IMG/VR virus record: IMGVR_UViG_3300035183_001123
Span: 1 to 35,701 of that record
Strand: one strand, 5' to 3'
Length of the DNA: 35,701 bases
Source of the DNA: a virus
The notes under the pieces are model-generated. The model saw only the letters and a program-made list of their open reading frames with translations, ran no database searches and was not told the DNA's origin. How positions within the stretch are numbered: the stretch's first letter is position 1; every line of letters begins with the position of its first letter. Of this stretch, positions 5,845 to 33,663 are shown in pieces. A program made the translations under genes and the position numbers.

Positions 5845-5895
5845 GGTTCATGCTCGCTAGCCGCCCCCCAGGCGGTCCCCTAGGTAAACGTGGCG

Positions 5896-5916
5896 GGCGG
5901 GTGGGGTAGACCCGCC
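5896..5916 (-). promoter_or_regulatory. Nested hairpins upstream of the major capsid gene
   Basis: The 134-nt gap between decoration and capsid genes holds a 7-bp stem GGCGGGT/ACCCGCC (5896-5916). This sits inside a wider AACGTGG/CCACGTT pairing (5887-5893 with 5938-5944), and a third small stem (5862-5876) abuts the capsid start. They could boost, protect or attenuate the capsid mRNA; no promoter could be fixed. Confidence 0.35.
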
Positions 5917-5978
5917 GTTTCGGCTCGTCAGCCTAGCCACGTTGGTTCTCATACAATCCCGGCCGAGGCAGGCAGGGA

Positions 5979-8730: not shown

Positions 8731-10404
8731 ATGGCCTTCGACTACACGACGGCGAATTCGGGCGTGTTTTGCCGCCTCGGCAAGATCATCAAGAAGATCA
8801 ACGCGGCCCTGTCCCTGGCCACGACCACCTACCCGGCCGACCTCAAGGAGATCGTGGACCTCTACGAGGCCGCCGACCTGACAGCGATCATCGAAGGACT
8901 GTACGGCACCTATGAGGGCTTCCGCGGCCAGGTCACGGGCGTGCGCCAGGCCCTGGCCGGCTACGCCGACCGGACCCTGCTGGACCGCGACACCGTCCTC
9001 GAACAGCTCCGCGTGCCCCAGGCCAGCATCCAGGCCGTCCTCGCCGCGCTGATCCAGCAGATGGTGGACGACGGCAAGACCGTGCAGAAAAACACCGTCA
9101 CGCTCGGCAGCGCGACGGCGAGCGCGTCCAACACCGGCACCGGCGTGGTCCTGGCCACGAAAGTCCTCGACGGGTGGAACTCGCCCCTCCAAGGCGCGGC
9201 GCCTCACATCCGCTACAACGGTCTGGCGTCCGAACTGGCCGTGCCGAGTGAAACGATGGTCGTGGAGTGCGTCGCCGACAGCATCCGGGACGGGACGGCC
9301 GAAGGGGCCGAACTGTTCGCCTGGCGCGGTGGAATCCCCGACGCGGAACTCGGATACCAGGACGAGGGCTCGGGACAGGGTCCGACGGTCGCCTGCGCCA
9401 ACGGGTCCAGGACCGTCCAGGACGGCGACTTCGAGAACTGGTCCGACAACACGCCGTCCAACTGGACGATTGCCGCCGGCACGGCCGGAACCCACGTCTT
9501 CCGGGAGGCCTCCAACGTCTTCCGTGGCAGTTCCGCGGCCAAGCTCCTGGGAAACGGCGCACAGGCAACGATCAGCTTGGAACAGTCGGTGCCGCCGTCG
9601 CTCCTCAAGAGCCGCCGCCGCTACTGTCTGTCCCTGCGCGTGAAGGCCTCGTCCGTCCCGGCGTCCGGGCAGTTGGGCATACGCTTCGCCGGGACGGGTT
9701 ACGCCACGACGGCCCCGACGAACGAAGTCCAGGACTTGCAAATCTCGGGGTCGCCCACCGGCGGGACGTACACCATCTCCTGGACGGGCCCTTACGGCGG
9801 CACGCAAACGACCGCGCCTTTGGCCTACAACGCCACGAGCGCCCAGGTCCAGGCGGCCCTACGCCTGCTCAAGGGTATGGAGTGTGTCGTCGTCGCGACG
9901 CAAGCGGGGTCGCCGCCGGACGTCACGCACCGAATCACCCTGTACGGCCTGCCCGGGCCGCAAAACCTTGTGGACGCGGACGTTAGTGGTCTGACCGGCG
10001 GGTCCCCGGCCAAGTCCGTCACGCGAGTGACGGCCGGGGTCGAGGGCGATTGCGTCGTCTTGCCCGCGGCGGCGTTCCCCACCGACTGGGCCCTGCCCCA
10101 TTTCTGGATCAACACGCCGACCATTCTGCCGGCCGATTGGAAGCTCGTCGTCGAGGTGACCGGGACGCTCACAAACGCCGTGGCCGTGTACGTCGATTCC
10201 CTGGCGCTGGAGGCCGTGACGTATCACGGTGGCGTCGGGCTGGTCGTCGTGGCGGGACAGACCCGATGGATCTCCGGCGACCGGACGACCTTCACCGTGG
10301 CCAACGACCAGGCCGGCAAGTTCCAGGAGTTTTTCCGCAAGCGTTACAAGGTCCAGTTGCCGTCGAGCGGCAGCCCGAACATTTCCGACGCCCTGGCCGC
10401 GTAA
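8731..10404 (+). CDS. Plus-strand virion protein with carbohydrate-binding-like domain
   Basis: 557 residues from the ATG with AGGAA just upstream; the frame is open further back, but that part shadows the protease gene. A helical N-terminus (1-120) is followed by a beta domain. At 230-330 the pattern DGDFENWSDNTPSNW is typical of CBM-like jelly-roll domains, and at about 343-430 a TYTISW...TAPLAYNATSAQV unit is common in planctomycete surface proteins (from memory). The last segment (QAGKFQEFFRKRYKVQ) may be an attachment module. Opposite in strand to all its neighbours, which suggests separate acquisition or host-range exchange. Likely a tail fibre or head-fibre protein. Confidence 0.65.
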   Translation: MAFDYTTANSGVFCRLGKIIKKINAALSLATTTYPADLKEIVDLYEAADLTAIIEGLYGTYEGFRGQVTGVRQALAGYADRTLLDRDTVLEQLRVPQASIQAVLAALIQQMVDDGKTVQKNTVTLGSATASASNTGTGVVLATKVLDGWNSPLQGAAPHIRYNGLASELAVPSETMVVECVADSIRDGTAEGAELFAWRGGIPDAELGYQDEGSGQGPTVACANGSRTVQDGDFENWSDNTPSNWTIAAGTAGTHVFREASNVFRGSSAAKLLGNGAQATISLEQSVPPSLLKSRRRYCLSLRVKASSVPASGQLGIRFAGTGYATTAPTNEVQDLQISGSPTGGTYTISWTGPYGGTQTTAPLAYNATSAQVQAALRLLKGMECVVVATQAGSPPDVTHRITLYGLPGPQNLVDADVSGLTGGSPAKSVTRVTAGVEGDCVVLPAAAFPTDWALPHFWINTPTILPADWKLVVEVTGTLTNAVAVYVDSLALEAVTYHGGVGLVVVAGQTRWISGDRTTFTVANDQAGKFQEFFRKRYKVQLPSSGSPNISDALAA

Positions 10405-10415
10405 TCCTGGCGGCC

Positions 10416-10661
10416 TCAATCCATGACGATCCTGCCGTTCCCGTTGGGCAAATGGGCTTCCGGCTTCGCGGAGGCGGCCGCGACCGGTCGCTCCAGGAGG
10501 CAAAACATGCCCGGCACCGACCTCGGTGACACGGGCGATTCCTGGACGCCGACCGGTTGCGTCGCGACGACGCGCCAACCCAGGCCGGCCTCTTCGTTCA
10601 GCCTGCGTAACATCTGGTCGCCGATGGGCAGGACCAAAACCTGATACTCAACGGTTTGCAT
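10416..10661 (-). CDS. DUF4177-like small protein
   Basis: 81 residues. It opens MQTVEYQVLVLP, then LRRLNEEAGLGWRVVATQPV and FCLLERP. This is the strand-helix-strand pattern of DUF4177, in which LNxxGxxGW(E/R)(L/V)V is diagnostic. Role unknown in phages. Its start overlaps the end of the large terminase gene by 14 nt and has a GAGGAC ribosome site, so it is the last gene of the terminase operon. It converges with the plus-strand virion gene with an 11-nt gap. Confidence 0.65.
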   Translation of the reverse strand: MQTVEYQVLVLPIGDQMLRRLNEEAGLGWRVVATQPVGVQESPVSPRSVPGMFCLLERPVAAASAKPEAHLPNGNGRIVMD

Positions 10662-12252
10662 GGTGCGTCCTCAGAGGGATGACGGTCGGCGTCGGAATGA
10701 CAATCGGCCCGAGTTCCAGGTGGGCCAGGACGACGGCGTCGGCGCAGTCCGGCGAGCGGCCCAGGCGCTTAGCGATCTCCTCCTTGCTCTCGATCTTGAC
10801 GCCGTCGGGCGTGGGCTGCCAGCGGGCCGCCGTCAGGTCGGCCAGCAGTTCCGAATCGGGCGGCAGGGCCAGGTTGTCGCCGTGTTCCGGGTCCAGGGCC
10901 TCCCGGAACGACCAGTAGGCGTAGGCCCGCAAGTTCTTGAACGTCAGGACCCCGGCACGGTCGCGTTGGCCGACGCGCTCGCGGAAGTCCACGGCCTTGA
11001 CGTATGGCACGTCCTGCCGGTAGTGGCGTCGGCACTCGTCGTAAACCGACGCCCCGACGCCGATCACGTCGATGTTGACGCGCGGGTTCAGGTTGTGGTG
11101 CCGCCGCCGGGCCTCTTGGACCGTCCGGACGATCATTCGTGTTACGGCCGGCCCGTCGGGCGTGTCGCTGCCGGACGCCTTGTGCAAGTGGGCATACCAA
11201 GGGCCGTGGCGTTCGGCCATGACGGTCTTGTCCGCCCCGCCACGCGCGACGTCCACGCCCAGGCACGACAGTCCGGTCGGCGGCCGCCCGTCGGGCCGCC
11301 ACCGTTCCTGCGCGGCCCGGACCCAGGCCGTGGGGATCACCTGCCACGGGTCGTCCTGCATGCCGGCGGTCATGTCGCCGTAGAGCAGTTGCGACCGGAG
11401 CGGTTCCGGCATCGCCTGGAGGCGGGCCAGATAGCCGGTCCGCATGTAAATGGGGTTGTCTTGCAGCCGCGCCGGGTAAAACGTGCGGCTGCGTGGGACG
11501 ATGCGTTCGCCCCGGTGCAGGACGGGGTCCGACGATTCGAGCCAGGTCAGTTTTCCGTCGAGGACCGTGTACCACCGAAGTTCGCCGGGCGCGGCCGGGC
11601 GGTGGAACTGTGCGTCGAGCCAGGGGGCGAAATCCTCGACGACCCAGCGCCCCTCCGGCGTCGTCGGCGGGTTGCCGGTCAACAGGACGCGACACCGCTG
11701 GTTCGGGTCGTCCGTCCGGTTCCAGCCGATGATGAACTGCACCTGGGTCCGGGAGAAGTGCGACGCCTCGTCGAAGACGTAGAGGTCGTAAGCCCGTCCC
11801 TGGTAGTTGTACTTGTCGTTCTCGCGCTCGCAGCCGTTGAACTCGATGACCCGGCCGTCCAGCCGCAGGATGCCGCCGTAGGGGCCGTTGGACCGCCACG
11901 AGCCGCGGCGTCCCACCAGACGGCGGACCTGTTCGACCAGCTCCCCCAGCTGCACGGATTCCCGGCGGAGGATCAGGCTGCGGCGATGGGCCGTGAGGGC
12001 GAGTCCTAGGCCGAGGAAACTTTTTCCGCCGCCGGCCGCGCCCCCGAAAAACACCTCATCCGCCTTGCTGCGGTAGGCCAGGGTCTGCGGGCCGGGCAGT
12101 GGCGTCCAGATCGGGGTCGGCACCGACCGGAGGAATTTGTCCAGTTCCTGGAGGGCCTCCTTCGGCAAGGCGCGGATCGCCTTCTCCACCCGATCCCTGG
12201 ACCAGGATTGCCATGACGCGGGCAACGCGCTCGTCGTGACTGAGGTCACCAT
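10648..12252 (-). CDS. Terminase large subunit
   Basis: 534 residues from an ATG at 12252; a GTG at 12189 preceded by AGGGA is an alternative start. Packages DNA into the prohead. Counting from the ATG, the Walker A is GGAAGGGKS (70-78), Walker B is YVFDE (158-162), motif III is LLTGNPP (190-196), and the nuclease domain opens LGVDVARGGADKT (331-343) with further acidic residues at NIDVIG and PDCADAV near the C-terminus. Both ATPase and nuclease look intact. The long overlap with the small subunit gene (196 or 134 nt) is unusual. Confidence 0.88.
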   Translation of the reverse strand: MVTSVTTSALPASWQSWSRDRVEKAIRALPKEALQELDKFLRSVPTPIWTPLPGPQTLAYRSKADEVFFGGAAGGGKSFLGLGLALTAHRRSLILRRESVQLGELVEQVRRLVGRRGSWRSNGPYGGILRLDGRVIEFNGCERENDKYNYQGRAYDLYVFDEASHFSRTQVQFIIGWNRTDDPNQRCRVLLTGNPPTTPEGRWVVEDFAPWLDAQFHRPAAPGELRWYTVLDGKLTWLESSDPVLHRGERIVPRSRTFYPARLQDNPIYMRTGYLARLQAMPEPLRSQLLYGDMTAGMQDDPWQVIPTAWVRAAQERWRPDGRPPTGLSCLGVDVARGGADKTVMAERHGPWYAHLHKASGSDTPDGPAVTRMIVRTVQEARRRHHNLNPRVNIDVIGVGASVYDECRRHYRQDVPYVKAVDFRERVGQRDRAGVLTFKNLRAYAYWSFREALDPEHGDNLALPPDSELLADLTAARWQPTPDGVKIESKEEIAKRLGRSPDCADAVVLAHLELGPIVIPTPTVIPLRTHHANR

Positions 12253-12592
12253 GATTGAGAATGCTCGTTGCCTGGTCGCGCAGGAGGCGCATCTTTTCAA
12301 CGGCGATGCCGAGCGACACGAACACGGCCTGGAGCGGCGCGCCCTCGATCTTCTCCAGGGTGCTGTCGAGCAGCTGATGGGCGACTTCCTCCAGGCGGTC
12401 GGCGAGGGCCGCGCGTTGGGCCACACGGGCCTGCGGCACTGGCTCGTGAATGCCCCGGCCCCTGGCCCACAGTTTCAAAGTTTGTTTGGGCATGCCGAGC
12501 TGCCTGGCCGTCCGGCGGACGTTGCCGCCGTTGGCGTCCAGGGCCGCCAGGGCGACCGCCTTCTCCGCCTCGGAATAGTGCCTCCGCGCCAT
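12056..12592 (-). CDS. Terminase small subunit, HTH type
   Basis: 178 residues from the ATG at 12592; a GTG two codons earlier is possible. Residues 4-45 form a helix-turn-helix (RTARQLGMPKQTLKLWARG holds the recognition helix) of the kind that binds packaging sites. The helical part 55-120 would drive oligomerisation. After about residue 125 the frame turns Gly/Pro-rich where it overlaps the large subunit, so the tail may be non-functional. It is the first gene of its operon, with a -10 TAGACT exactly 7 nt before the ATG. Confidence 0.75.
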   Translation of the reverse strand: MARRHYSEAEKAVALAALDANGGNVRRTARQLGMPKQTLKLWARGRGIHEPVPQARVAQRAALADRLEEVAHQLLDSTLEKIEGAPLQAVFVSLGIAVEKMRLLRDQATSILNHGDLSHDERVARVMAILVQGSGGEGDPRLAEGGPPGTGQIPPVGADPDLDATARPADPGLPQQGG

Positions 12593-12599
12593 GGTCACC

Positions 12600-12630
12600 A
12601 GTCTAACGGCTACCGGCTAACGGCTACCGG
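12600..12630 (-). promoter_or_regulatory. Leaderless-type promoter with 14-bp tandem duplication
   Basis: The minus-strand -10 is TAGACT (12600-12605), within CCGGTAGCCGTTAGACTGG. A 14-bp unit, CTAACGGCTACCGG on the plus strand, occurs twice back to back (12603-12616 and 12617-12630), so the upstream half of the motif is duplicated. ATG follows 7 nt after the -10. Confidence 0.55.
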
Positions 12631-12702
12631 TCCTGGTCGGGTCTGGGCCAGTTGCGGGCGTGTTTTCCCAAAGTGTTATGGCCGCTTTCACATTCGTGCG
12701 GT

Positions 12703-12708
12703 TACAAT
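12703..12708 (+). promoter_or_regulatory. -10 element of a leaderless-type promoter
   Basis: TACAAT at 12703-12708 is followed after 6 nt by the ATG at 12715. The segment TTACAATCC..AC-ATGGGGA is nearly repeated on the minus strand before the RHH gene at 34035. No convincing -35 at 16-18 nt. Confidence 0.5.
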
Positions 12709-12714
12709 CCAGAC

Positions 12715-13260
12715 ATGGGGACGAACAGCCGGCGCGACTTCAAACCGCTCACGCTCCCCGCCCTGTCGCCAACCCAGCTCGAAGCCCTTCATGTCGGCCA
12801 GGCGGTCCTGGAACTGGCGGCGTCCTGGGGGAGCGTCCTCATTCTTCAGGAGGAGGACGCGGAATCGGAGCGGCCGGTCGGGTGTCGCCTCACCCTCCTG
12901 GGCGAATTCCCTTCCCGCGACCTGATGCCGGCCGTCGTCCGGGCCGCCGCCCCTCGCGTCAAACAAGGGGGCCGCCGCCCCTCACGCCGGCCTGGCCGCC
13001 ATCAGTGCCTGGTGACGGTCGGCGAGCGGACGGCCCGCGTGACCGTCAGCGGGCGGAGGCTGGTGGAGGTCGTCCTCACCGCCGCGGGACGGCCCCCCAA
13101 GAAGCCTTGCAAGAACTGCAAGCGCGCCAAATTCTGGTACGAATTCTCCCTCTCGCAGCAGAGCGACGACGGCGTCAACTCCTACTGCCTCCAGTGCGAG
13201 CGGGAAAAGCAGCGGGCCTACCAGGAGCGGTGCCGCCGCCTCATGCGGGACGCCGCCTGA
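12715..13260 (+). CDS. Plus-strand zinc-finger protein, HNH-associated type
   Basis: 181 residues. The C-terminal part (about 125-170) has CKNCKRAKFWYEF...SYCLQCEREK, a four-Cys zinc module that in other phages precedes HNH or endonuclease VII nuclease domains. Here no HNH residues follow and the protein ends soon after, so a nuclease call is not supported. The N-terminal 110 residues carry an Arg-rich loop and are not recognised. It is divergent from the terminase operon and converges with the 13293 gene after 32 nt. It may be a small DNA-binding factor linked to packaging. Confidence 0.6.
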   Translation: MGTNSRRDFKPLTLPALSPTQLEALHVGQAVLELAASWGSVLILQEEDAESERPVGCRLTLLGEFPSRDLMPAVVRAAAPRVKQGGRRPSRRPGRHQCLVTVGERTARVTVSGRRLVEVVLTAAGRPPKKPCKNCKRAKFWYEFSLSQQSDDGVNSYCLQCEREKQRAYQERCRRLMRDAA

Positions 13261-13921: not shown

Positions 13922-15418
13922 TCAATTCTCCTTGGGCCGAATGATCAACGGTTGGTTCGGCCGCCGGATCACGTCGGCCTCTGGTGGTGCTTCGTTGCGG
14001 ACGTAGACCGGCGTCAGCCGGCCCTCACGGGCCCAGCGGGCGACGTTCCGCTGGAAATGAGGGATCAGGGCAGGGTCGTCCTGGACCGCCGTGACGTGCG
14101 CGGCCCCGCGTTCGAGGCAGAGGGCCGCGAAGGCGCCCACGCCGGCGTCCAGGTCCAGGACCGTCAGGCCGTCGAGCCGGTCGGGCAGTCCCGGAACGCC
14201 CCGCAGCCATGCGTCGTCCCACTCGTCGCGGTCGCGACTGCCTCGAACGCGGAAAAATCGCTCGGGGTAAACCAGCCGTTCCGCCTCTCGGTAATAGGCG
14301 TGGGCCTCGTCCTCGCGGCAGTGTTCCTTCAACCGCAGGCCGTAAGGGGCCACGGGGCCTCCGGCATAAGACTGGAACCGGTCCGTTTCGTTGAAGCGGA
14401 ACTTGGAGTGCGTCCGGTGGACGAACAGGACGTCCCCGTCGAAGTCCTTCTGAATGTAGGCGTTGTCCCAGAACGCCGGCCGCGGCCATGGGAACTGCCA
14501 GGGGGTTTGGGTATACGTCCAGGCGATGTCGAAGAGGTCCTTGTCGCCGTAAACGCCGGCGACGGATTCGAGTTTGTAGGTATAGTCCCGGTGTTCGTTG
14601 AGCCACCAGGCCACGTTGAGGGCCTTCCAGCACCGCCGCTTGTCCACAAGGAATTGGCCGCTCTCGATGGCCTCCCGCCCCGTCTGGGGCGGGAGGCCGA
14701 ACCGACGCCAGCCTTCCGCCCGCAGGGGGCCGCACCGGTCGGGCCAGAACAGGTCGCGGTCGCGAAACGCCTTGGACGAAAAGAGGCGGGCGATGCAGTC
14801 GGGCGAGCCGCGCCGCGTCCGCCGGACCGGGTAGCTGTCGGCGTCGAGGGAGAGGACCTGGCGGAAGCCGCTGAACAGTACCGCGAACGGCTTGAGCTCC
14901 CACGGCGGATACCCCTGTCCGCCGCCGAGGAACCGGGGCCGCAACCCGCGCTCCCGGGCGACCGCGTTGGCGTCACGCCAGGTCACGCCCTTCAGGATCA
15001 GACCCATGCGCGGGTCGTATTCGCCGCTGTCCCCCAGATACCACACCTCGACGGGCAGCTCGCAGCCGCACGCACGGATCATGCGGACCGTGACGTAGAG
15101 GCTGGCGAAGAACCGCCAGCCGCCGGCGCAGATCACGATGCCCCGCCCGTCGAACTCGCCTTCCGGGTACGGCGGCAGGCTCGCGGCGTAGCGGCGCATG
15201 GCCTCGCGGTGGGCTTCGATTGTGACCGGCCAGTTGTGCCAGTCCGGCGCGGACCAGTAGCAGGGCGGCGACCTTTGGATCAGGTCGATCATTGCCTCCA
15301 GGGGCATCTCCGGGTGCGCCTGCCAGCACTCGACGCGGCCGGTCATCGGCACGTCGTACTCCCGGGCCGGCCTCGGGGCGGTCCGTCTGGCGAACCAGTC
15401 ACGAATGCGACGAAACAT
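13922..15418 (-). CDS. Glycosyltransferase with methyltransferase-like C-terminal tail
   Basis: 498 residues. Residues 92-330 resemble MNN1/mannosyltransferase-type enzymes: GIVICAGGWRFFASLYVTVR (93-112), the acceptor-side ELPVEVWYLGD (120-130), LKPFAVLFSGFRQVLSLDAD (175-194) whose DAD at 192-194 is the metal/nucleotide-sugar motif, and a WxDNAY segment near 320. Residues 416-498 start like a SAM methyltransferase, with motif I VLDLDAGVGAFA (420-431), but only about 80 residues follow, so the fold is incomplete. The enzyme could decorate virion proteins or host surface sugars. It sits inside the virion operon between a zinc-ribbon protein and a virion protein, overlapping the former by 20 nt. 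Confidence 0.7.
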   Translation of the reverse strand: MFRRIRDWFARRTAPRPAREYDVPMTGRVECWQAHPEMPLEAMIDLIQRSPPCYWSAPDWHNWPVTIEAHREAMRRYAASLPPYPEGEFDGRGIVICAGGWRFFASLYVTVRMIRACGCELPVEVWYLGDSGEYDPRMGLILKGVTWRDANAVARERGLRPRFLGGGQGYPPWELKPFAVLFSGFRQVLSLDADSYPVRRTRRGSPDCIARLFSSKAFRDRDLFWPDRCGPLRAEGWRRFGLPPQTGREAIESGQFLVDKRRCWKALNVAWWLNEHRDYTYKLESVAGVYGDKDLFDIAWTYTQTPWQFPWPRPAFWDNAYIQKDFDGDVLFVHRTHSKFRFNETDRFQSYAGGPVAPYGLRLKEHCREDEAHAYYREAERLVYPERFFRVRGSRDRDEWDDAWLRGVPGLPDRLDGLTVLDLDAGVGAFAALCLERGAAHVTAVQDDPALIPHFQRNVARWAREGRLTPVYVRNEAPPEADVIRRPNQPLIIRPKEN

Positions 15419-23799: not shown

Positions 23800-24174
23800 G
23801 TTGGACGGGACCAGCGCCGGCTGGCGGACAGGATCGGCCGCGAGGGCGGCACGGTGACGCCCCGCGAGGTGCAGCAAGGGTGCCGATGGTTGAAAGAGCC
23901 CGGCACGGCGGAAGCGGCTCTGGAGGGGCTGACCAGAGCCGGGCGCGGCAGATGGGTCACGGAACCGCCCCCGGCTACAGGGGGCCACCCGCGACGTGTT
24001 TTCGTCCTGTCTACGGTGTCTACGTCTACACTCGCTCAAAATCTTCGGGAAATACATGCGAGTGTAGACGTAGACAGTGTAGACGCCCGGGAAGTGCGAC
24101 CGGCGACGGGCCTGGGGCCAGCCGGCCTGTTCGGCGGCCCGGCCCCGGTCGGCCCCTACGCGGAAGGTTTCTGA
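23800..24174 (+). pseudogene. C-terminal remnant of a DUF3987-type primase/helicase
   Basis: The plus frame ending at 24172-24174 reads QRRLADRIGREGGTVTPREV, then WLKEPGTAEAALEGLTRAGR, GRWVTEPPP and RRVFVLSTVST. This is the winged-helix end of DUF3987-type replication proteins common in planctomycetes (from memory). No start codon or upstream domains remain: to the left is the promoter of the portal operon. The matching N-terminal zinc-finger piece lies at 28724, on the far side of the integrase. The last third of the fragment is the translation of a large inverted repeat. Confidence 0.6.
24009..24084. repeat. 27-bp inverted repeat built from GTCTAC units
   Basis: Arms 24009-24035 and 24058-24084 match at 25 of 27 positions around a 22-nt loop. 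Each arm carries three GTCTAC (or GTAGAC) hexamers, six in all. It lies 155 nt before the toxin-antitoxin start and within the primase remnant. Candidate integrase arm sites, initiator iterons, or an operator/terminator. Confidence 0.75.
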
Positions 24175-28727: not shown

Positions 28728-29158
28728 CCCCCTTCGAAAACCTGCTGGCCCGGCTGCCCGGCGCGAGGCGGGCCGGCAACGGCTGGTCGGCGCGCTGTCC
28801 GGCCCATGACGACCGGCGGGCATCCCTGAGCATCGCCGAGGGCGGCGACGGCACGGTGTTGTTGAAATGTCACGCCGGCTGTTCGACGGCGGCGGTCCTG
28901 GCGGCCGTGGGCCTGTCGCCGCGCGACCTGTTCCCGGCGACGGCCGGCCCGACGCCGGCACGCAACGGTCACTGCAAGCCGGCGAACGGCGCGCTCATAT
29001 TTTTAATGTGCGCGCTCATAGTTTTGAGCTCCGCTCGTAAAAAGAGCCGCAGCGCGCGCCCCGCCGCACCAGTTGGCCGTTCTGAACCATGCGGTCGAGT
29101 AGGCGGGTTGCCTGGTATGGGCCCAATTGGCACAACTCCGCGGCTTCCCGACGGGTGA
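28724..29158 (+). pseudogene. N-terminal primase zinc-finger fragment
   Basis: 144 residues in frame, of which only the first 90 look genuine: MTPFENLLARLPGARR, then WSARCPAHDDRRASLSI and VLLKCHAGCSTAAVLAAVGL. This is the CHC2-like zinc finger (CPAHDD...CHAGC) found at the start of phage primases that continue into TOPRIM and DUF3987 domains. From about 28985 the frame turns into hydrophobic and Arg-rich sequence without similarity. The catalytic part is missing. Coupled to the excisionase-like gene by ATGA. Confidence 0.7.
28989..29020. repeat. 11-bp direct repeat GCGCGCTCATA, 21-bp period
   Basis: Two exact copies (28989-28999 and 29010-29020), two helical turns apart, in a short AT-rich patch where the primase fragment degenerates and the minus-strand winged-helix ORF ends. 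Confidence 0.6.
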
Positions 29159-29192
29159 TTCGCCCGTGCCTTTCCACGTACTGCAACACCAT
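29016..29192 (-). CDS. Winged-helix domain fragment
   Basis: 58 residues from an internal ATG: MVLQYVERHGRITRREAAEL, then ATRLLDRMVQNGQLVRRGAR and a short tail. This is a winged-helix domain, with helix-turn-helix GRITRREAAELCQLGPYQATRLL and a wing. The frame is open upstream to about 29340 without a usable start, so the gene has probably lost its 5' end or its start is non-standard. The upstream part crosses the 46-bp hairpin at 29247-29292. Convergent with the primase fragment, which it overlaps. Confidence 0.55.
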   Translation of the reverse strand: MVLQYVERHGRITRREAAELCQLGPYQATRLLDRMVQNGQLVRRGARCGSFYERSSKL

Positions 29193-29246
29193 CTGTTGCT
29201 GCTGGAGCGGCTCGAAGCCGCGCTGGCGGACGTAAGCGGCGATCCA

Positions 29247-29292
29247 GGCAGCTACATTTCGCGTAGCGGCGGCTACACGAAATGTAGCTGCC
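29247..29292. repeat. 46-bp near-perfect hairpin
   Basis: A 15-bp perfect outer stem (29247-29261 with 29278-29292), one C/A mismatch, then a 5-bp inner stem GTAGC/GCTAC around GGCG. No T-tract on either side. The longest hairpin in the right third; a candidate operator, terminator, nick site or recombination scar. Confidence 0.7.
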
Positions 29293-29349
29293 GCAGGATT
29301 TTGACACTTTTTTGCGGGCGCATTTGTGGACCAGTCAGAATGCTGCCAG

Positions 29350-29355
29350 TAATAT
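29350..29355 (+). promoter_or_regulatory. -10 of a leaderless-type promoter for the XRE gene
   Basis: TAATAT is 6 nt before the ATG at 29362. TGGACC 17 nt upstream is a weak -35. Confidence 0.45.
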
Positions 29356-29361
29356 TAGGGC

Positions 29362-29646
29362 ATGACAAAACACCTGACCTCGGACGAATTGCGGGCGCTG
29401 ATCCGTGGGCAGATCGCGCGGCACCGAATTAGCCTCCTGGAGGTCGCGCGCCAGGCGGAGATTCCGCCCCCCACTGTGCGATCCTACCTGTACCACCAGA
29501 CAGACACAGGGATCGAGCGGGTTTTGCGGATCGCTGCGGCGGTCGGTTTGCGCGTAACAGCTTGTCCTTACGAGAGTTTCGTCCCGCCTCCACCTCGCCC
29601 GCGCGGCCGGAAAAAATCTAGCAAAATTTTGCCGGATTTTTGTTGA
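29362..29646 (+). CDS. XRE-family HTH regulator
   Basis: 94 residues. LTSDELRALIRGQIARHRIS, LLEVARQAEIPPPTVRSYL and IERVLRIAAAVGLRV form the five-helix XRE fold, with the recognition helix at PPPTVRSYLY. The basic C-terminus (RPRGRKKSSK) is extra. The coding end overlaps a strong promoter (TTGACA at 29643), which may be controlled by this protein: a GACAG-N8-CTGTC dyad covers the -35. Likely the local repressor of the small-gene operon. Confidence 0.75.
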   Translation: MTKHLTSDELRALIRGQIARHRISLLEVARQAEIPPPTVRSYLYHQTDTGIERVLRIAAAVGLRVTACPYESFVPPPPRPRGRKKSSKILPDFC

Positions 29647-29670
29647 CAGACAAAATCCTGTCGATATACT
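29643..29670 (+). promoter_or_regulatory. Strong promoter of the small-gene operon
   Basis: TTGACA (29643-29648), a 16-nt spacer and TATACT (29665-29670). An inverted pair GACAG/CTGTC at 29645-29662 overlaps the -35, a natural operator. The 30 bp at 29621-29650 recur at 34142-34171 with 25 matches. Confidence 0.75.
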
Positions 29671-29703
29671 ACTGACGTCGGGCGAGTGATTGCCCGGCCG
29701 GTA

Positions 29704-29729
29704 GCCGCGCCCCGATTGAGCGCGGCAGG
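29704..29729 (+). promoter_or_regulatory. Leader stem-loop element, copy 1
   Basis: Stem GCCGCGC/GCGCGGC, loop CCCGATTGA, followed by AGG. A second hairpin GCCCCC-GAGACT-GGGGGC (29733-29750) follows, then the ribosome site GGGAGGA before the ATG at 29768. Confidence 0.7.
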
Positions 29730-29767
29730 TTGGCCCCCGAGACTGGGGGCTGAGGGAGGACCGAACC

Positions 29768-30067
29768 ATGCAAACTCTGACCGTCAGACTGTTGGACCGC
29801 AGCCCGATCCCGCACGCGCGGTGGTGCGAGCCGGTCGGCTGGGAGCCGGCCAACAAGATCGCGGGAGCGGAATACGGGTACGGGGCGTGGTGGGGCGCTG
29901 GGGGCCAGGTGGTGGCGGGCCTGGTCTGGTTCGGGCACGCGGAGGATCATGAGGAGCTGCGGCAGATCGAAGCCCATCCGGTTGAGCTGGCCGTTGTCTC
30001 CTGTGGCGACGGCTGCGATGAGAACTATCGCGTGATTGAATGGGTGGCACCGCCCGCCGCCGACTAA
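29768..30067 (+). CDS. Small protein of unknown function
   Basis: 99 residues. MQTLTVRLLDRSPIPHARWC at the start, then VVAGLVWFGHAEDHEELRQI and VVSCGDGCDENYRVIEWVAP. Neutral, with many W and aromatic residues and a small C-terminal Cys pair. Good ribosome site 7 nt before the ATG. First gene after the strong promoter at 29643. Not recognised. Confidence 0.65.
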   Translation: MQTLTVRLLDRSPIPHARWCEPVGWEPANKIAGAEYGYGAWWGAGGQVVAGLVWFGHAEDHEELRQIEAHPVELAVVSCGDGCDENYRVIEWVAPPAAD

Positions 30068-30078
30068 CCCACTGACGA

Positions 30079-30118
30079 GCCGCCCGGCGGGGCGGCGAAA
30101 CCCGGCGGTAACGCCGGG
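30079..30118 (+). promoter_or_regulatory. Two tandem hairpins after the 29768 gene
   Basis: GCCGCCC-GGCG-GGGCGGC (30079-30096) and CCCGGCG-GTAA-CGCCGGG (30101-30118), both perfect, the second with a GNRA-type loop. No T-tract. They precede copy 2 of the leader element, so the intergenic RNA is three stems in a row. Confidence 0.6.
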
Positions 30119-30139
30119 TCTGGGACGCACCCACGGGCA

Positions 30140-30165
30140 GCCGTGCCCCGATTGAGCACGGCAGG
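30140..30165 (+). promoter_or_regulatory. Leader stem-loop element, copy 2, with compensatory change
   Basis: Stem GCCGTGC/GCACGGC with the same CCCGATTGA loop as copy 1. The C-G pair at stem position 5 of copy 1 is T-A here, so both sides changed and pairing is kept. AGG follows. The next gene starts at 30202 with ribosome site GAGAGGA. Confidence 0.7.
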
Positions 30166-30201
30166 CGGTCCTCTGACATTTCGAGGAATTGAGAGGATGA
30201 C

Positions 30202-30393
30202 ATGACCGCGAAGAAGAAAGACCTTGGGTTCGTCGCAGACATCGTGGCGAGTGACACCGAAGAGGCGACGCGGCTCCTTCAGCTGATTGGGGCCGTCGAG
30301 TACAGCGAAGTGTGCGAGCATGACTGGCACTGCTACGGCACGGTCAACGGTGCGACACGCTACGGATGTCAGAAATGCGGAGCCACACGGTAG
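30202..30393 (+). CDS. Small zinc-ribbon-like protein
   Basis: 63 residues. Helical N-terminus MTAKKKDLGFVADIVASDTE, then CEHDWHCYGTVNG and YGCQKCGATR. The order C-x-H-x-x-C ... C-x-x-C suggests a small zinc site. Function unknown. It lies in the structured-leader operon, with a tRNA-like sequence after it. Confidence 0.65.
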   Translation: MTAKKKDLGFVADIVASDTEEATRLLQLIGAVEYSEVCEHDWHCYGTVNGATRYGCQKCGATR

Positions 30394-30445
30394 ACGAACC
30401 AAACCCGCCGACCTCCCGCCCCGCGCCGTGCCGGCCTAGTCACCC

Positions 30446-30534
30446 GGCGGCCCAGACCGGCGCGGGGCACCTGGCGGCGTGCCGAGGGCCATGCGGCCCT
30501 GGGGTACCAGCGGGTTCGAGCCCCGCAGCCGCCC
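30446..30534 (+). other. tRNA-like sequence with perfect T-arm
   Basis: A perfect T-arm, stem GCGGG/CCCGC with loop TTCGAGC (30510-30526), is followed by AGCCGCC, which pairs at 6 of 7 positions with GGCGGCC (30446-30452). Between them are GGCAC-8-GTGCC and AGGGCC-ATGC-GGCCCT hairpins, but no proper D-arm and no 7-nt anticodon loop. CCA is not adjacent (CTCGCCA). Not a canonical tRNA; a decayed tRNA, tRNA mimic or att scar. Confidence 0.4.
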
Positions 30535-30550
30535 TCGCCAGACAGGGGCA

Positions 30551-30580
30551 GCCGCGCGCCCGCGCTAGCGCGGCAGGAGG
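30551..30580 (+). promoter_or_regulatory. Leader stem-loop element, copy 3
   Basis: Stem GCCGCGC/GCGCGGC with loop GCCCGCGCTA, directly followed by the ribosome site AGGAGG. The loop lacks GATTGA. ATG is at 30587. Confidence 0.65.
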
Positions 30581-30586
30581 TTAACT

Positions 30587-31003
30587 ATGCCGACACAGAC
30601 AGCCATCCGGCCACCGATTGCGTGGCGGCAGCGACCGCCATACCCAGAGCCACCCGCCGGGTATGAGCTGGTCATCTACCGGAGCCGCGCGGCCGCCCAG
30701 GCCTCTCGCGTCTGGGGGGTCCGCCCGGTCCATATCGGCTTGTGCACCTACGCTTTGTGGGTTCCGCTCGGCGCTCCACCGCCAGATACGCCCCTGCGTC
30801 GCGATGTCGCGGACTGGTTGGCCGCTGGGGGGAAGGCTGCGAACCTCGTATGCCAGCGCGAATACCCCTATGGTCTCGCTCGCATCTGCGCGTATGCCGA
30901 GGGGATGGGCTGTCCCATCCCCGCCCAGTACACGGGGCGGGCCGCCGATCTGTACGATTTTCTCGCGGCGGCTCGCGAATACTGCGGGAGGCAACAGTCA
31001 TGA
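30587..31003 (+). CDS. Protein of unknown function
   Basis: 138 residues. A Pro-rich N-terminus (PPYPEPPAGYELVIYRSRAA) precedes a mixed domain with PVHIGLCTYALWVPLG and a C-terminal helix DLYDFLAAAREYC. AGGAGG is 6 nt before the ATG. Its stop overlaps the next start as ATGA. Not recognised. Confidence 0.65.
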   Translation: MPTQTAIRPPIAWRQRPPYPEPPAGYELVIYRSRAAAQASRVWGVRPVHIGLCTYALWVPLGAPPPDTPLRRDVADWLAAGGKAANLVCQREYPYGLARICAYAEGMGCPIPAQYTGRAADLYDFLAAAREYCGRQQS

Positions 31004-31218
31004 CCACGTGCGGCCATTGCGGCGGGCGGGGCTGGGTGCTCCGTGCGAGCTATGACATGGAAGGACGGGCCAGGCCCGAGGGCGAGCGGCGGGTGGCGTG
31101 CGAGTACTGCGCCGGGGCCGGGGCGTGCAGCCAAGGGCATATGCTGTTGCCGGCCAGCGAGACGGCCCCGGCGGACCCGGACGACGTGGCGCGGGCCGGC
31201 TTGCCGGCGTGGGCATAG
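31000..31218 (+). CDS. Small zinc-ribbon protein, DnaJ-like Cys pairs
   Basis: 72 residues. MTTCGHCGGRGWVLRASYD and CEYCAGAGACSQGH show two CxxCxGxG motifs, the pattern of DnaJ-type zinc ribbons. Only two pairs, so a single zinc site at most. Coupled to the previous gene by ATGA. A stand-alone module like this may bind nucleic acid or a partner protein. Confidence 0.7.
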   Translation: MTTCGHCGGRGWVLRASYDMEGRARPEGERRVACEYCAGAGACSQGHMLLPASETAPADPDDVARAGLPAWA

Positions 31219-31222
31219 GGTA

Positions 31223-31253
31223 GCCGCGCGCCCTGATTGAGCGCGGCAGGAGG
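31223..31253 (+). promoter_or_regulatory. Leader stem-loop element, copy 4
   Basis: Stem GCCGCGC/GCGCGGC, loop GCCCTGATTGA, directly followed by AGGAGG. The next ATG is at 31263. Same architecture as copies 1 and 2. Confidence 0.7.
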
Positions 31254-31262
31254 CTAACGACC

Positions 31263-31388
31263 ATGAATCTCCGAATCACCCACGTTCAGATTGTCAGGCG
31301 GCGGCACGCGCCGCGCTCGCCGGTCAAGCGGCGGCAGGTCCGCCGAGCCCGCCACGCCAGGCCCTCGCCCGTGAGGACGGCCCGATGA
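31263..31388 (+). CDS. 41-residue Arg-rich peptide
   Basis: MNLRITHVQIVRRRHAPRSP, then more Arg/Lys-rich sequence to a stop that overlaps the next start (ATGA, 31385-31388). Strongly basic, likely nucleic-acid binding or a leader peptide. Support for translation comes from AGGAGG, the leader element and the coupling, not from similarity. Confidence 0.55.
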   Translation: MNLRITHVQIVRRRHAPRSPVKRRQVRRARHARPSPVRTAR

Positions 31389-31627
31389 TTGCCGCCACCA
31401 TCATCCCCGAGCCGCACGCGGTCGCCCCGGACGGCCGCGTGCTTGCCACGAGGGCGTGGACCGTCGGCGGGGACGGCATGCTGATCTCGCCCCACTGGCT
31501 GACCCCGTGGCCAACACACACGATGTCGGCTGAGATGTCCGAATCGGACGCCGTCCTGGGCGAGGCCGGCCTTCATGCGGTCACGTACGCGCCGCGGGCC
31601 GGCCCTGCCAAGCCAAGCGGTCGGTGA
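31385..31627 (+). CDS. Small protein of unknown function
   Basis: 80 residues. MIAATIIPEPHAVAPDGRVL and MLISPHWLTPWPTHTMS. No motif recognised. Coupled by ATGA to the basic peptide upstream, and the repeat protein starts 1 nt after its stop. Confidence 0.55.
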   Translation: MIAATIIPEPHAVAPDGRVLATRAWTVGGDGMLISPHWLTPWPTHTMSAEMSESDAVLGEAGLHAVTYAPRAGPAKPSGR

Positions 31628-31628
31628 C

Positions 31629-32291
31629 GTGCTGTGCGACGGCCGCGTGGCATTCTCGTCGAGGGGGCTGCGCGCCGAGCGTATGGAGATCGTCACGCTG
31701 CGCGTGCTGTGCCCCAATCTGGCGGCCCGCCTGCGCGCCAGGTACCCGGGCGTCCGGGTGTCCGTGGTCCGACACCGGAAGGCCGGGTGCCGCCACATAC
31801 TCACCAGAGCAGGAACGCTGGTCATTGCGCGTTTTCGGGACAACCTGCTACACGGCCGGCGCGAGATACGGTCGGCGGACGGTGGCACGGCCGTCGAACA
31901 TTTCCGTGCCGGCCTGCTACAGGGCCGGCGCGAGGAACGCCTGGCGGACGGAACGCTGGTCGTTGAACATTTCCGCGGCAACCAACTACATGGCCGGCGA
32001 GAGTGGCGCCGGCCAGACGGCCACACGGTCGTTGAACATTTCCGGAACGACCGGCAACATGGCCGGAAAGAGGAACGCCGGCCGGACGGAACGCTAATCG
32101 TCGATCGCTACCGTGACGGCCAGCTACACGGCCGGTGCGAGTGGCGCTGGGCGGACGGCTCGATCTCCATCGCGCACTACCGTGATGGTCGTCTACACGG
32201 CCGGTGCGAGGAACGCCGGCCGGACGGCAGCGTGTTCATCGAGCGGTGGCGCGACGGTCTGCGATGTGACCAGACCAGCCCAACCTGTTGA
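31629..32291 (+). CDS. MORN_2-like repeat protein
   Basis: 220 residues from GTG 31629, one nt after the previous stop; an ATG at 31683 is the alternative. The repeats begin near residue 58 and run to the end as about seven 22-residue units of the form TLVVEHFR(G/D)xxLHGRxExRxxDG. This matches MORN_2 repeats (G-x-x-x-G or HG with alternating acid/aromatic residues) seen in YwqK-like antitoxin-type proteins. Each unit makes a beta hairpin, so the protein is a flat repeat sheet for binding partners. Units are also alike at the DNA level, suggesting recent expansion. Confidence 0.7.
   Translation: MLCDGRVAFSSRGLRAERMEIVTLRVLCPNLAARLRARYPGVRVSVVRHRKAGCRHILTRAGTLVIARFRDNLLHGRREIRSADGGTAVEHFRAGLLQGRREERLADGTLVVEHFRGNQLHGRREWRRPDGHTVVEHFRNDRQHGRKEERRPDGTLIVDRYRDGQLHGRCEWRWADGSISIAHYRDGRLHGRCEERRPDGSVFIERWRDGLRCDQTSPTC
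31850..32250 (+). repeat. 66-bp coding tandem repeats of the MORN_2-like gene
   Basis: Six to seven 66-bp units with recurring blocks GAACATTTCCG, CATGGCCGG and GAGGAACGCC. DNA identity is visible between neighbours, so copy number may vary between isolates. Confidence 0.65.
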
Positions 32292-32338
32292 TGGGCCGCC
32301 CGGCGGGGCTGAGGGGACCGGGCCATTCGCCGGGACGG

Positions 32339-32698
32339 TCACGCATCATCCACCACATCCGGAGCCAACAGGCTGTGTATCGCCCTGGCGGCCCGGTACA
32401 AATACCGCGATTCCCGAGGCCTGGGATTGGGGTTCTCGACCCAGTGCTCGGCGTTGGCCGGCTCGGCGCGGAACGCGGCCAGGCGGCGGGTCAGCGTCGC
32501 CCGGCCCAGGCCCGTGCGCCTGGCCAACACCTGCGCGGCCACCCACTCGTCCTCATCGGGCACCGCCGGCCCGGTGGCCGGCTCCTCGACCAGAATCTGA
32601 CTGACGACCACGTCCGCAACAATCTGCAACCGGGCAACGGCAGCGCTGGCGTTCTCCAGTATTCGCAGCGCGGCCGCAAGTCTGTCCTGGCGGTCCAC
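32339..32698 (-). CDS. Minus-strand HTH protein
   Basis: 119 residues from a GTG with a G-run ribosome site upstream; the longer frame adds an Arg/Trp-rich stretch judged unlikely. Helix SAAVARLQIVADVVVSQILV, then EDEWVAAQVLARRTGLGRAT and LTRRLAAFR, a helix-turn-helix, then HWVENPNPRPRESRYLYRAA, a wing-like end. Probable DNA-binding regulator. Convergent with the repeat-protein gene. Confidence 0.6.
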   Translation of the reverse strand: MDRQDRLAAALRILENASAAVARLQIVADVVVSQILVEEPATGPAVPDEDEWVAAQVLARRTGLGRATLTRRLAAFRAEPANAEHWVENPNPRPRESRYLYRAARAIHSLLAPDVVDDA

Positions 32699-33175
32699 GA
32701 CGCCCCCCCCTGGCCACCACGCGTGAGCGGCAAGCCGACGGCGCAGGCGGGACGCCCAACACGAGCGCGACGCCAATCGGCCGTCCCAACTGTAATACCC
32801 TTCGCACCCCCCTGCAAGCCGCCGCCCAGCTGCACACCACGGCGGCCCAAGCCACGCGGCAATTTACCTAAACGCGCGTTCACTACGCAAGGCCGGTCAC
32901 AAAAAAAATAAGCGGACAGGCTGAAACGGCCGGAGGCCACGGTCGTGAGCGCCTTGCGGCAATTCTCGTGGCTCATTTCGTGGCTCATTCGTGGCTCACG
33001 TGAGCCACGAACGCACTTTTTGCGATTTTTCAAAAATCTTAAACCCTTGGCCCGGTGGCACTTGCGAAAATCGCCCCCGTGGCTCACGTGAGCCTCGACA
33101 ACACGGAATTCCGGCGTCCGGGTAGCCTCGGTCCATGCGCCGGCCGCTGGGGCCGGCGGCGTGGAGGGCGTGGCA
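32699..33175. other. Gene-free region with iterons
   Basis: No convincing CDS. The long minus frame across it (32491-33765) is Arg/Pro/Gly-rich and spans the csrA gene antisense, so it is treated as a shadow. 32780-32960 shows nothing clear apart from an 8-A run (32901-32908). The palindromes at 32968-33096 are listed separately. A GC hairpin (33138-33160) precedes csrA. Confidence 0.5.
32968..33096. repeat. GTGGCTCA iterons, two palindromes and an AT-rich hairpin
   Basis: GTGGCTCA at 32968, 32980 and 32991; the third extends to the perfect 18-bp palindrome GTGGCTCACGTGAGCCAC (32991-33008). A second, near-perfect copy GTGGCTCACGTGAGCC lies at 33079-33094. Between them is AT-rich DNA with the perfect hairpin GATTTTT-C-AAAAATC (33024-33038). 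Half-site spacing is 11-12 bp. The layout resembles a replication origin, a partition site or a strong operator. Confidence 0.7.
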
Positions 33176-33403
33176 ATGCTCGTACTGTCGCGGCGCATCG
33201 GTGAGCGGATCGAGCTGCACACCGGTGACGGCCTGATTACCCTCGCCGTCGTGCGCGTGAGGGGCGCCGGCGAGCGGGCGTCGGTCGGCCTGGGGATTGA
33301 GGCGCCGGACGCGGTGGCGATTCGGCGGTCGGAAGTGCCGCTGCGGCTTGTTTCGCCGGCGTCGTCGGCGGCCGACCCGGACGACGGCCCGAGGGCGGCC
33401 TGA
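33176..33403 (+). CDS. csrA: Carbon storage regulator homologue CsrA
   Basis: 75 residues from ATG 33176, which has GGAGGG upstream. MLVLSRRIGERIELHTGDGL is the CsrA opening, with L4 and R6 in place. The core IEAPDAVAIRRSEV has the second RNA-binding Arg region. CsrA dimers bind GGA-containing RNA, often in hairpin loops at ribosome sites, to block or stabilise translation. In a phage or prophage it could rewire host or own mRNAs; hairpins with AGGAGG lie upstream at 30551 and 31223. Next gene starts 2 nt after its stop. Confidence 0.87.
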   Translation: MLVLSRRIGERIELHTGDGLITLAVVRVRGAGERASVGLGIEAPDAVAIRRSEVPLRLVSPASSAADPDDGPRAA

Positions 33404-33405
33404 TC

Positions 33406-33663
33406 GTGGGCGACCTGTTTGGTTGGCTGGGGTGTCTGGCCGCAATCTCCATCCCCTGGACGATGGCGTCCGACCGTCGGCCGGTCCACCGGCCGACCGC
33501 GGCGGCGTGCGTCCTGACCCACCTCCTGTACGGGTCGGCGGCGGCGTGCCAGGGCCGCTGGTGGCTCCTGGCCAGCAGCGTCAACGGCCTGGTCGCCCTG
33601 GCCTATCTGGCCTGGAGGGACCGACGGCGGCGCGACCCGCCCGGAAGGGACGCCTCGGCTTAA
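33406..33663 (+). CDS. Small membrane protein
   Basis: 85 residues from GTG 33406. Two hydrophobic segments: FGWLGCLAAISIPWTMA near 5-21 and WWLLASSVNGLVALAYLAW near 51-69. The basic RRRRDPPGR tail predicts a cytoplasmic C-terminus. The stop overlaps the stop of the opposite gene as TTAA. Directly follows csrA, so perhaps co-expressed. Function unknown; a holin is possible but nothing else supports it. Confidence 0.6.
   Translation: MGDLFGWLGCLAAISIPWTMASDRRPVHRPTAAACVLTHLLYGSAAACQGRWWLLASSVNGLVALAYLAWRDRRRRDPPGRDASA

Follow-up and report, generated by a model that had tools for sequence, protein, structure and literature searches.

What does a short hairpin do when a phage repeats it in front of several different small genes of one operon? 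The question is raised by IMG/VR virus record IMGVR_UViG_3300035183_001123, of which the whole stretch of 35,701 nucleotides was analysed and is here called the window. An initial annotation had described four copies of a leader stem-loop, at 29704, 30140, 30551 and 31223, and all four are present on the + strand. Another contig, L067/L068 (IMGVR_UViG_3300036768_001444), is identical to window positions 1-26322 and extends ~9.4 kb further on its left, indicating a phage genome of at least ~45 kb. The phage integrase shares 50% identity with the best planctomycete copies, is matched at E < 1e-40 in 46 of 392 planctomycete genomes and is less than 30% identical to the best matches among phage records; judged by sequence, a planctomycete is the likely host. 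The short stretches of planctomycete DNA around related integrases contained no hammerhead and no repeated leader hairpin. It should also be mentioned that the integrase gene is preceded, at 24011-24082, by a near-perfect inverted repeat of 25 bp around a 22-nt spacer, which gives weak microRNA-precursor-like matches on both strands, and that a mannosyltransferase-like gene (13922-15418, - strand; PF11051, 9.4e-20) lies on the same strand as the phage structural genes.

The repetition of the hairpin is well beyond chance. The pattern AGCCGYGC-N(5-20)-GCRCGGCAGG has four matches in the window, each on the + strand, where 100 dinucleotide shuffles give 0.00, and the bare stem pattern likewise has four against 0.59 expected from shuffles. 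As annotated, every copy possesses a 7-bp stem, with seven of seven pairs being Watson-Crick, and the arms are separated by 9, 9, 10 and 11 nt in copies 1 to 4. The corresponding loops are CCCGATTGA, CCCGATTGA, GCCCGCGCTA and GCCCTGATTGA; those of copies 1 and 2 are identical and GATTGA ends the loop in copies 1, 2 and 4, both points having been made before, with the loop of copy 4 being close to the first two and that of copy 3 diverged. Each stem is followed by CAGG (AGG in the register of the initial annotation). Of the earlier statement that AGG or AGGAGG lies right after the stem, the AGG holds for all four copies, and AGGAGG is directly adjacent in copies 3 and 4 only. Copy 2 has a U-A pair replacing the C-G pair of the others, this being the one pair of seven that varies. 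The double change is real but does not amount to the proof of selection it had been taken for, as 131 of 500 shuffles reach the same covariation. Outside the stem the copies differ, and all seven pairs are kept throughout.

Equilibrium folding gave hairpins 1-3 a pair probability of 0.97-1.00 when the folded stretch contained the whole hairpin; the hairpin of copy 4 was out-competed in a longer context (0.00-0.14). An Rfam search of the hairpin region returned no credible known leader or riboswitch, in agreement with the annotation, which had recognised none. The hairpins were also considered as intrinsic terminators, a reading that was rejected: the stem is followed by AGG with no U-tract, and a terminator scan found no copy. 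A search of the window for a kissing partner of the GATTGA loop gave chance-level matches only, the copies themselves aside. The features of the locus are listed in Table 1.

Table 1. Features of the small-gene operon and its leaders, in window coordinates.
Feature	Position	Strand	Remarks
Promoter-like site TTGACA-16-TATACT	29643-29670	+	11/12 matches; putative function
Hairpin at predicted transcript start, 5' of copy 1	29677-29698	+	Fold
Leader hairpin copy 1	29704-29726	+	GCCGCGC CCCGATTGA GCGCGGC, then AGG; pattern match, fold
Second hairpin of leader 1	29730-29753	+	Beside Shine-Dalgarno GAGGGAGG; fold
Gene 1, 99 aa	29768-30067	+	No assigned function; 54% identical homologue in contig L064
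Type I hammerhead ribozyme (predicted)	30068-30124	+	Between genes 1 and 2; stem I CCCA/UGGG
Hammerhead core CUGACGA	30072-30078	+	Sequence
Hammerhead stem II	30079-30096	+	Sequence, fold
Hammerhead GAAA	30097-30100	+	Sequence
Hammerhead stem III, GUAA loop	30100-30119	+	Sequence, fold
Hammerhead U30119 and C17 (= C30120)	30119-30120	+	Predicted cleavage 30120/30121
Possible new 5'-terminal hairpin after cleavage	30121-30133	+	UGGG-ACGCA-CCCA; CCCA repeats the stem I 5' strand
Leader hairpin copy 2	30140-30162	+	GCCGTGC CCCGATTGA GCACGGC, then AGG; holds the double change
Hairpin UCCUCU...AGAGGA	30169-30197	+	Pairs the gene 2 Shine-Dalgarno; fold
Gene 2, 63 aa	30202-30393	+	No assigned function
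tRNA-like two-arm fold	30473-30533	+	Gene 2-3 spacer; perfect T-arm GCGGG-TTCGAGC-CCCGC
Leader hairpin copy 3	30551-30574	+	Diverged loop; AGGAGG immediately 3'
Gene 3, 138 aa	30587-31003	+	No assigned function
Gene 4, 72 aa	31000-31218	+	Start overlaps gene 3 stop; no hairpin copy
Leader hairpin copy 4	31223-31247	+	4 nt past gene 4 stop; AGGAGG immediately 3'
Gene 5, 41 aa	31263-31388	+	No assigned function
Gene 6	from 31385	+	Overlaps gene 5 stop; no hairpin copy

The placement of the copies relative to the genes is regular. They stand 12-41 nt upstream of the starts of genes 1, 2, 3 and 5, as had been anticipated for a leader, and within genes 1-6 a hairpin precedes every gene lacking start/stop coupling to its upstream neighbour. 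Since genes 4 and 6 start within the preceding stop and have no copy, the module marks independent translation starts within this gene set. In copies 3 and 4, where AGGAGG adjoins the stem, the start codon comes 12-15 nt after the hairpin. Copies 1 and 2 have a further hairpin separating the stem from the start codon; here the likely Shine-Dalgarno is situated ~30 nt beyond the stem and the stem-adjacent AGG is not the main one. The promoter-like site upstream of copy 1 is the only one found on the + strand in 28900-33500. With a single predicted promoter, and with a spacer whose varying length is more readily understood for the loop of an RNA than for an operator in DNA, the earlier view of an intercistronic, cis-acting leader at the mRNA level before different small genes is supported. 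In the spacer between genes 2 and 3, ARAGORN did not call a full tRNA at the two-arm fold, which may possibly be the remnant of a tRNA or a site of processing.

What had escaped the initial annotation is a hammerhead ribozyme beside copy 2, and this changes the best reading of the element. The stretch following directly on the gene 1 stop codon has the layout CCCA-CUGACGA-[stem II]-GAA-[A...U stem III]-C/UGGG, with the order CUGANGA ... GAAA ... UH of the hammerhead core and three stems of 4, 7 and 8 pairs around it, stem I being open. By sequence it is a type I hammerhead, with self-cleavage predicted 19 nt upstream of leader hairpin copy 2; the other three copies have no ribozyme beside them. 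A descriptor covering the three hammerhead permutations, run on the window and on 30 shuffles of it, finds the ribozyme, and the shuffles give 0.0 hits on average. Over 13 hammerhead copies the stems covary, several pair types occurring in stem II (positions 2 and 4-6) and in stem III (positions 4-6). As a possible tertiary contact between stems I and II, the window copy offers only a 3-nt complementarity. Among phage copies, 24 of 51 have 4 nt or more in loop II that are complementary to the sequence directly past stem I, against 9.7 when shuffled, an enrichment in line with pseudoknots described by Perreault et al. (PMC3088659). The Rfam hammerhead models list no family for the window; as they also score other scanned phage copies below the gathering cut-off, the miss is read as limited model sensitivity. 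A second, apparently decayed hammerhead lies after a MORN-repeat gene (32288-32338, + strand); it has GCCGCCCGGCGGGGC in common with the intact one and its core is broken.

No occurrence of the leader hairpin beyond chance was found in IMG/VR, in GTDB, in the 392 planctomycete genomes or in the nearest related phages. Pattern scans of IMG/VR and GTDB gave scattered chance matches, nearly all unpaired, and in the planctomycete genomes the matches did not exceed those of a reversed control. The initial annotation had named a lack of further covarying copies in related genomes as a refutation; a covariance model retrieves only the four copies themselves (46-54 bits, the next match scoring 20). 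The hairpin is thus peculiar to this phage and, by that test, the case for a selected structure depends on a single genome. Few relatives of the operon were found. The one relative of gene 1 in the virus collection is the homologue in L064, searches with genes 1, 3 and the portal returned only L064 and contig L067/G001, and the latter is identical to the window where they overlap and is devoid of the small-gene region. INPHARED gave no match to the operon.

The arrangement recurs where the hairpin does not. In the related phage L064, three spacers of the operon resemble hammerheads, the one after the gene 1 homologue among them, with two of the three having an imperfect stem III and none being called by the strict descriptor. 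The window hairpin was not found in the L064 operon, also not with the covariance model; there, six starts have another leader, ACGAAAGGGAAA, in front of them, one copy having a mismatch. In G003/L065, a phage unrelated to these, 12 hammerheads (nine type I, three type II) lie between small genes, and a leader of the CTGCAATG type, reading CTGCAATGGAG or nearly so, occurs at 20 sites, almost always immediately ahead of a start. When more viral contigs were scanned, 34 stretches were obtained, including a group with five to seven hammerheads and the same CTGCAATGGAG leader. Taken together, L064, G003/L065 and the scanned contigs indicate that the combination of hammerheads between cistrons and a repeated start leader peculiar to the phage has arisen in phages more than once. 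As side observations, contig L122 (IMGVR_UViG_3300039303_000016) has hammerheads of types III, III, I, I and II in one run of genes (9547-12720), and the start leader CTGCAATGGAG behind hammerheads is common to two phage groups, namely L096, L102, L107, L114, L120, L121, L126 and L069/L070, with hammerhead stems that are otherwise different.

A further regularity concerns the strand released by cleavage. In G003 the freed strand is GCGG and CCGC follows a few nucleotides on, and the new 5' end can fold into a hairpin from nucleotide +1. Of 51 type I hammerheads in a non-redundant set, 31 have a freed stem I strand that can re-pair exactly with a sequence downstream, compared with 5.2 ± 2.1 when shuffled, 9 with an unreversed-complement control and 4-12 of 51 in equal-sized control windows further downstream; counted by family, the figures are 13 of 23 against 2 to 4 in control windows. 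The search pattern fixed GTCGCGG and two more bases and nothing further downstream, so the downstream stem copy was not selected for. The hairpin in the window follows the rule and is not significant alone, and most such hairpins are not significant case by case, the significance lying only in the larger set. It is equally possible that the downstream stem copy instead competes with ribozyme folding before cutting.

The reading that best accounts for a repeated hairpin placed in this way and confined to this phage, for the sequence and structure of the ribozyme and its occurrence in L064, and for the arrays and the re-pairing enrichment is that the four hairpins form a phage-specific, start-associated mRNA leader module on transcripts partly processed by ribozyme, to which we give a probability of about 0.5. 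One long transcript would start from the promoter at 29643 and would cut itself between genes 1 and 2 at the hammerhead. The gene 2 message would then begin at 30121 with a small 5'-terminal hairpin, followed by leader copy 2 and a structured Shine-Dalgarno region. The module would provide each cistron with a standard folded front end, which may shield processed messages from decay initiated at the 5' end, and the leader may set ribosome entry just downstream. A simple insulation of the ribosome-binding site is not favoured, as folding gives no sign that the hairpin exposes it: with the hairpin forbidden in constraint folding, which is a thermodynamic model only, opening of the site is little changed for genes 1 and 2, and for gene 3 it is lower with the hairpin.

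The main rival, which we hold to be doubtful, is that the hairpins are bound by an RNA-binding protein, either the phage's own or one of the host, and act as a repeated operator by which translation of the whole gene set would be switched together and in which the GATTGA loop would be recognised. The loop is indeed conserved beyond the needs of a plain stem, being identical in copies 1 and 2 and ending alike in three of four, and a position beside the Shine-Dalgarno suits such an operator; against this, copy 3 has lost the loop sequence. The phage does encode a CsrA-like protein (33161-33403, + strand; PF02599, 1e-10), a circumstance in favour of regulation of this type. However, GGA, the CsrA target sought, occurs in none of the four loops, so this protein is no natural partner for them.

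That the leader was recently duplicated and has no role beyond supplying a ribosome-binding site seems unlikely. There are just four copies in one genome, their covariation is not significant and the hairpin is absent from the related L064 operon, all of which speak for a young duplication, yet the sequence outside the stem varies while seven pairs are kept, one double change included, and a ribosome-binding site alone does not account for the conserved hairpin because in copies 1 and 2 the main Shine-Dalgarno is not the stem-adjacent AGG. Rather improbable, too, is an action of the repeats as DNA, either as operators or as short homology for the swapping of small gene cassettes. Unrelated small genes do sit between near-identical 35-nt repeats, and other phages carry their own distinct repeats at equivalent places, but a half-site spacer of 9, 9, 10 and 11 nt poorly fits a fixed DNA-binding dimer, orientation and distance track the start codons, and there is only a single promoter. 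For the start-associated leader module, protection of the 5' region and the setting of ribosome entry are the preferred roles.

The role of small ribozymes in phage genomes has been open since the cluster report of 2011, and the SAS repeats of other phages are likewise without a function. The presence of both kinds of element in one operon, together with downstream stem copies in most of the sampled phage type I hammerheads, leads to a testable proposal, namely that after ribozyme processing the 5' end of every message is folded. The findings suggest that the virus divides its long messages into messages of one gene each, all beginning with a folded structure of a standard kind. A wider version is put forward tentatively, as somewhat less probable than not: a general phage leader which is cut and re-capped, where the hammerhead cuts, the freed stem I 3' strand refolds and a repeated start leader follows, would give separate, protected and uniformly translated mRNAs and would be a natural counterpart of RiboJ. 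It is also worth mentioning that Rfam models rank many phage hammerheads below cut-off. Clustered prophage hammerheads and SAS repeats are already known; for the combination of hammerhead and start repeat, and for the re-capping strand, no description was found in the open-licence literature searched, so their novelty is unproven.

In 2011, hammerheads clustered around single genes in prophages were proposed to process long phage transcripts to shorter mRNAs (Perreault et al., PMC3088659). That report shares with the present data hammerheads between phage genes and types I, II and III, and it describes pseudoknots between stem regions, with which the enriched loop II complementarity is in line. 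It differs in that the window has a single clear ribozyme, unreported by Rfam, and in that other contigs have longer arrays (12 in G003) with a repeated leader after each ribozyme and often a re-capping strand.

The SAS/ESAS repeats occur in Cluster K mycobacteriophages and Cluster EF Microbacterium phages, with no function given (PMC3203893, PMC7302621). Like the leader described here, they are phage-specific repeats at the ribosome-binding sites of many genes and are rare or absent in host genomes. Some have inverted repeats with a variable 4-13 nt spacer just upstream, and the leader is similarly an inverted repeat of 7-bp arms with a variable spacer of 9-11 nt, repeated at several phage ribosome-binding sites, although it abuts the Shine-Dalgarno only in copies 3 and 4. 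Its sequence is unrelated, its arms are of 7 bp rather than the 17 bp of SAS/ESAS, there are 4 copies rather than 11-19 and one of them lies behind a hammerhead ribozyme. As the 13-bp SAS consensus (GGGATAGGAGCCC or GGGAAAGGACCCC; PMC3203893, PMC7302621) is not matched, the leader may work like SAS and is not a member.

Among structured RNAs of mobile elements, int-alpA RNA (RF02996) is comparable, but it has three stems where the leader is a simple hairpin. A copy of it (46.8 bits) lies on the - strand at 5877-5943, in a late-gene spacer shortly before the next start; it contains CUGACGAGCCGAAAC and has a three-stem layout reminiscent of a hammerhead. The closest likeness in layout is to the synthetic insulator RiboJ (PMC6206723), whose order of hammerhead, hairpin and ribosome-binding site is that found before gene 2, at copy 2 only. 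An improved exposure of the ribosome-binding site by the hairpin, as in RiboJ, is not supported by the constraint folding, and the phage element is a natural one, unrelated to RiboJ in sequence.
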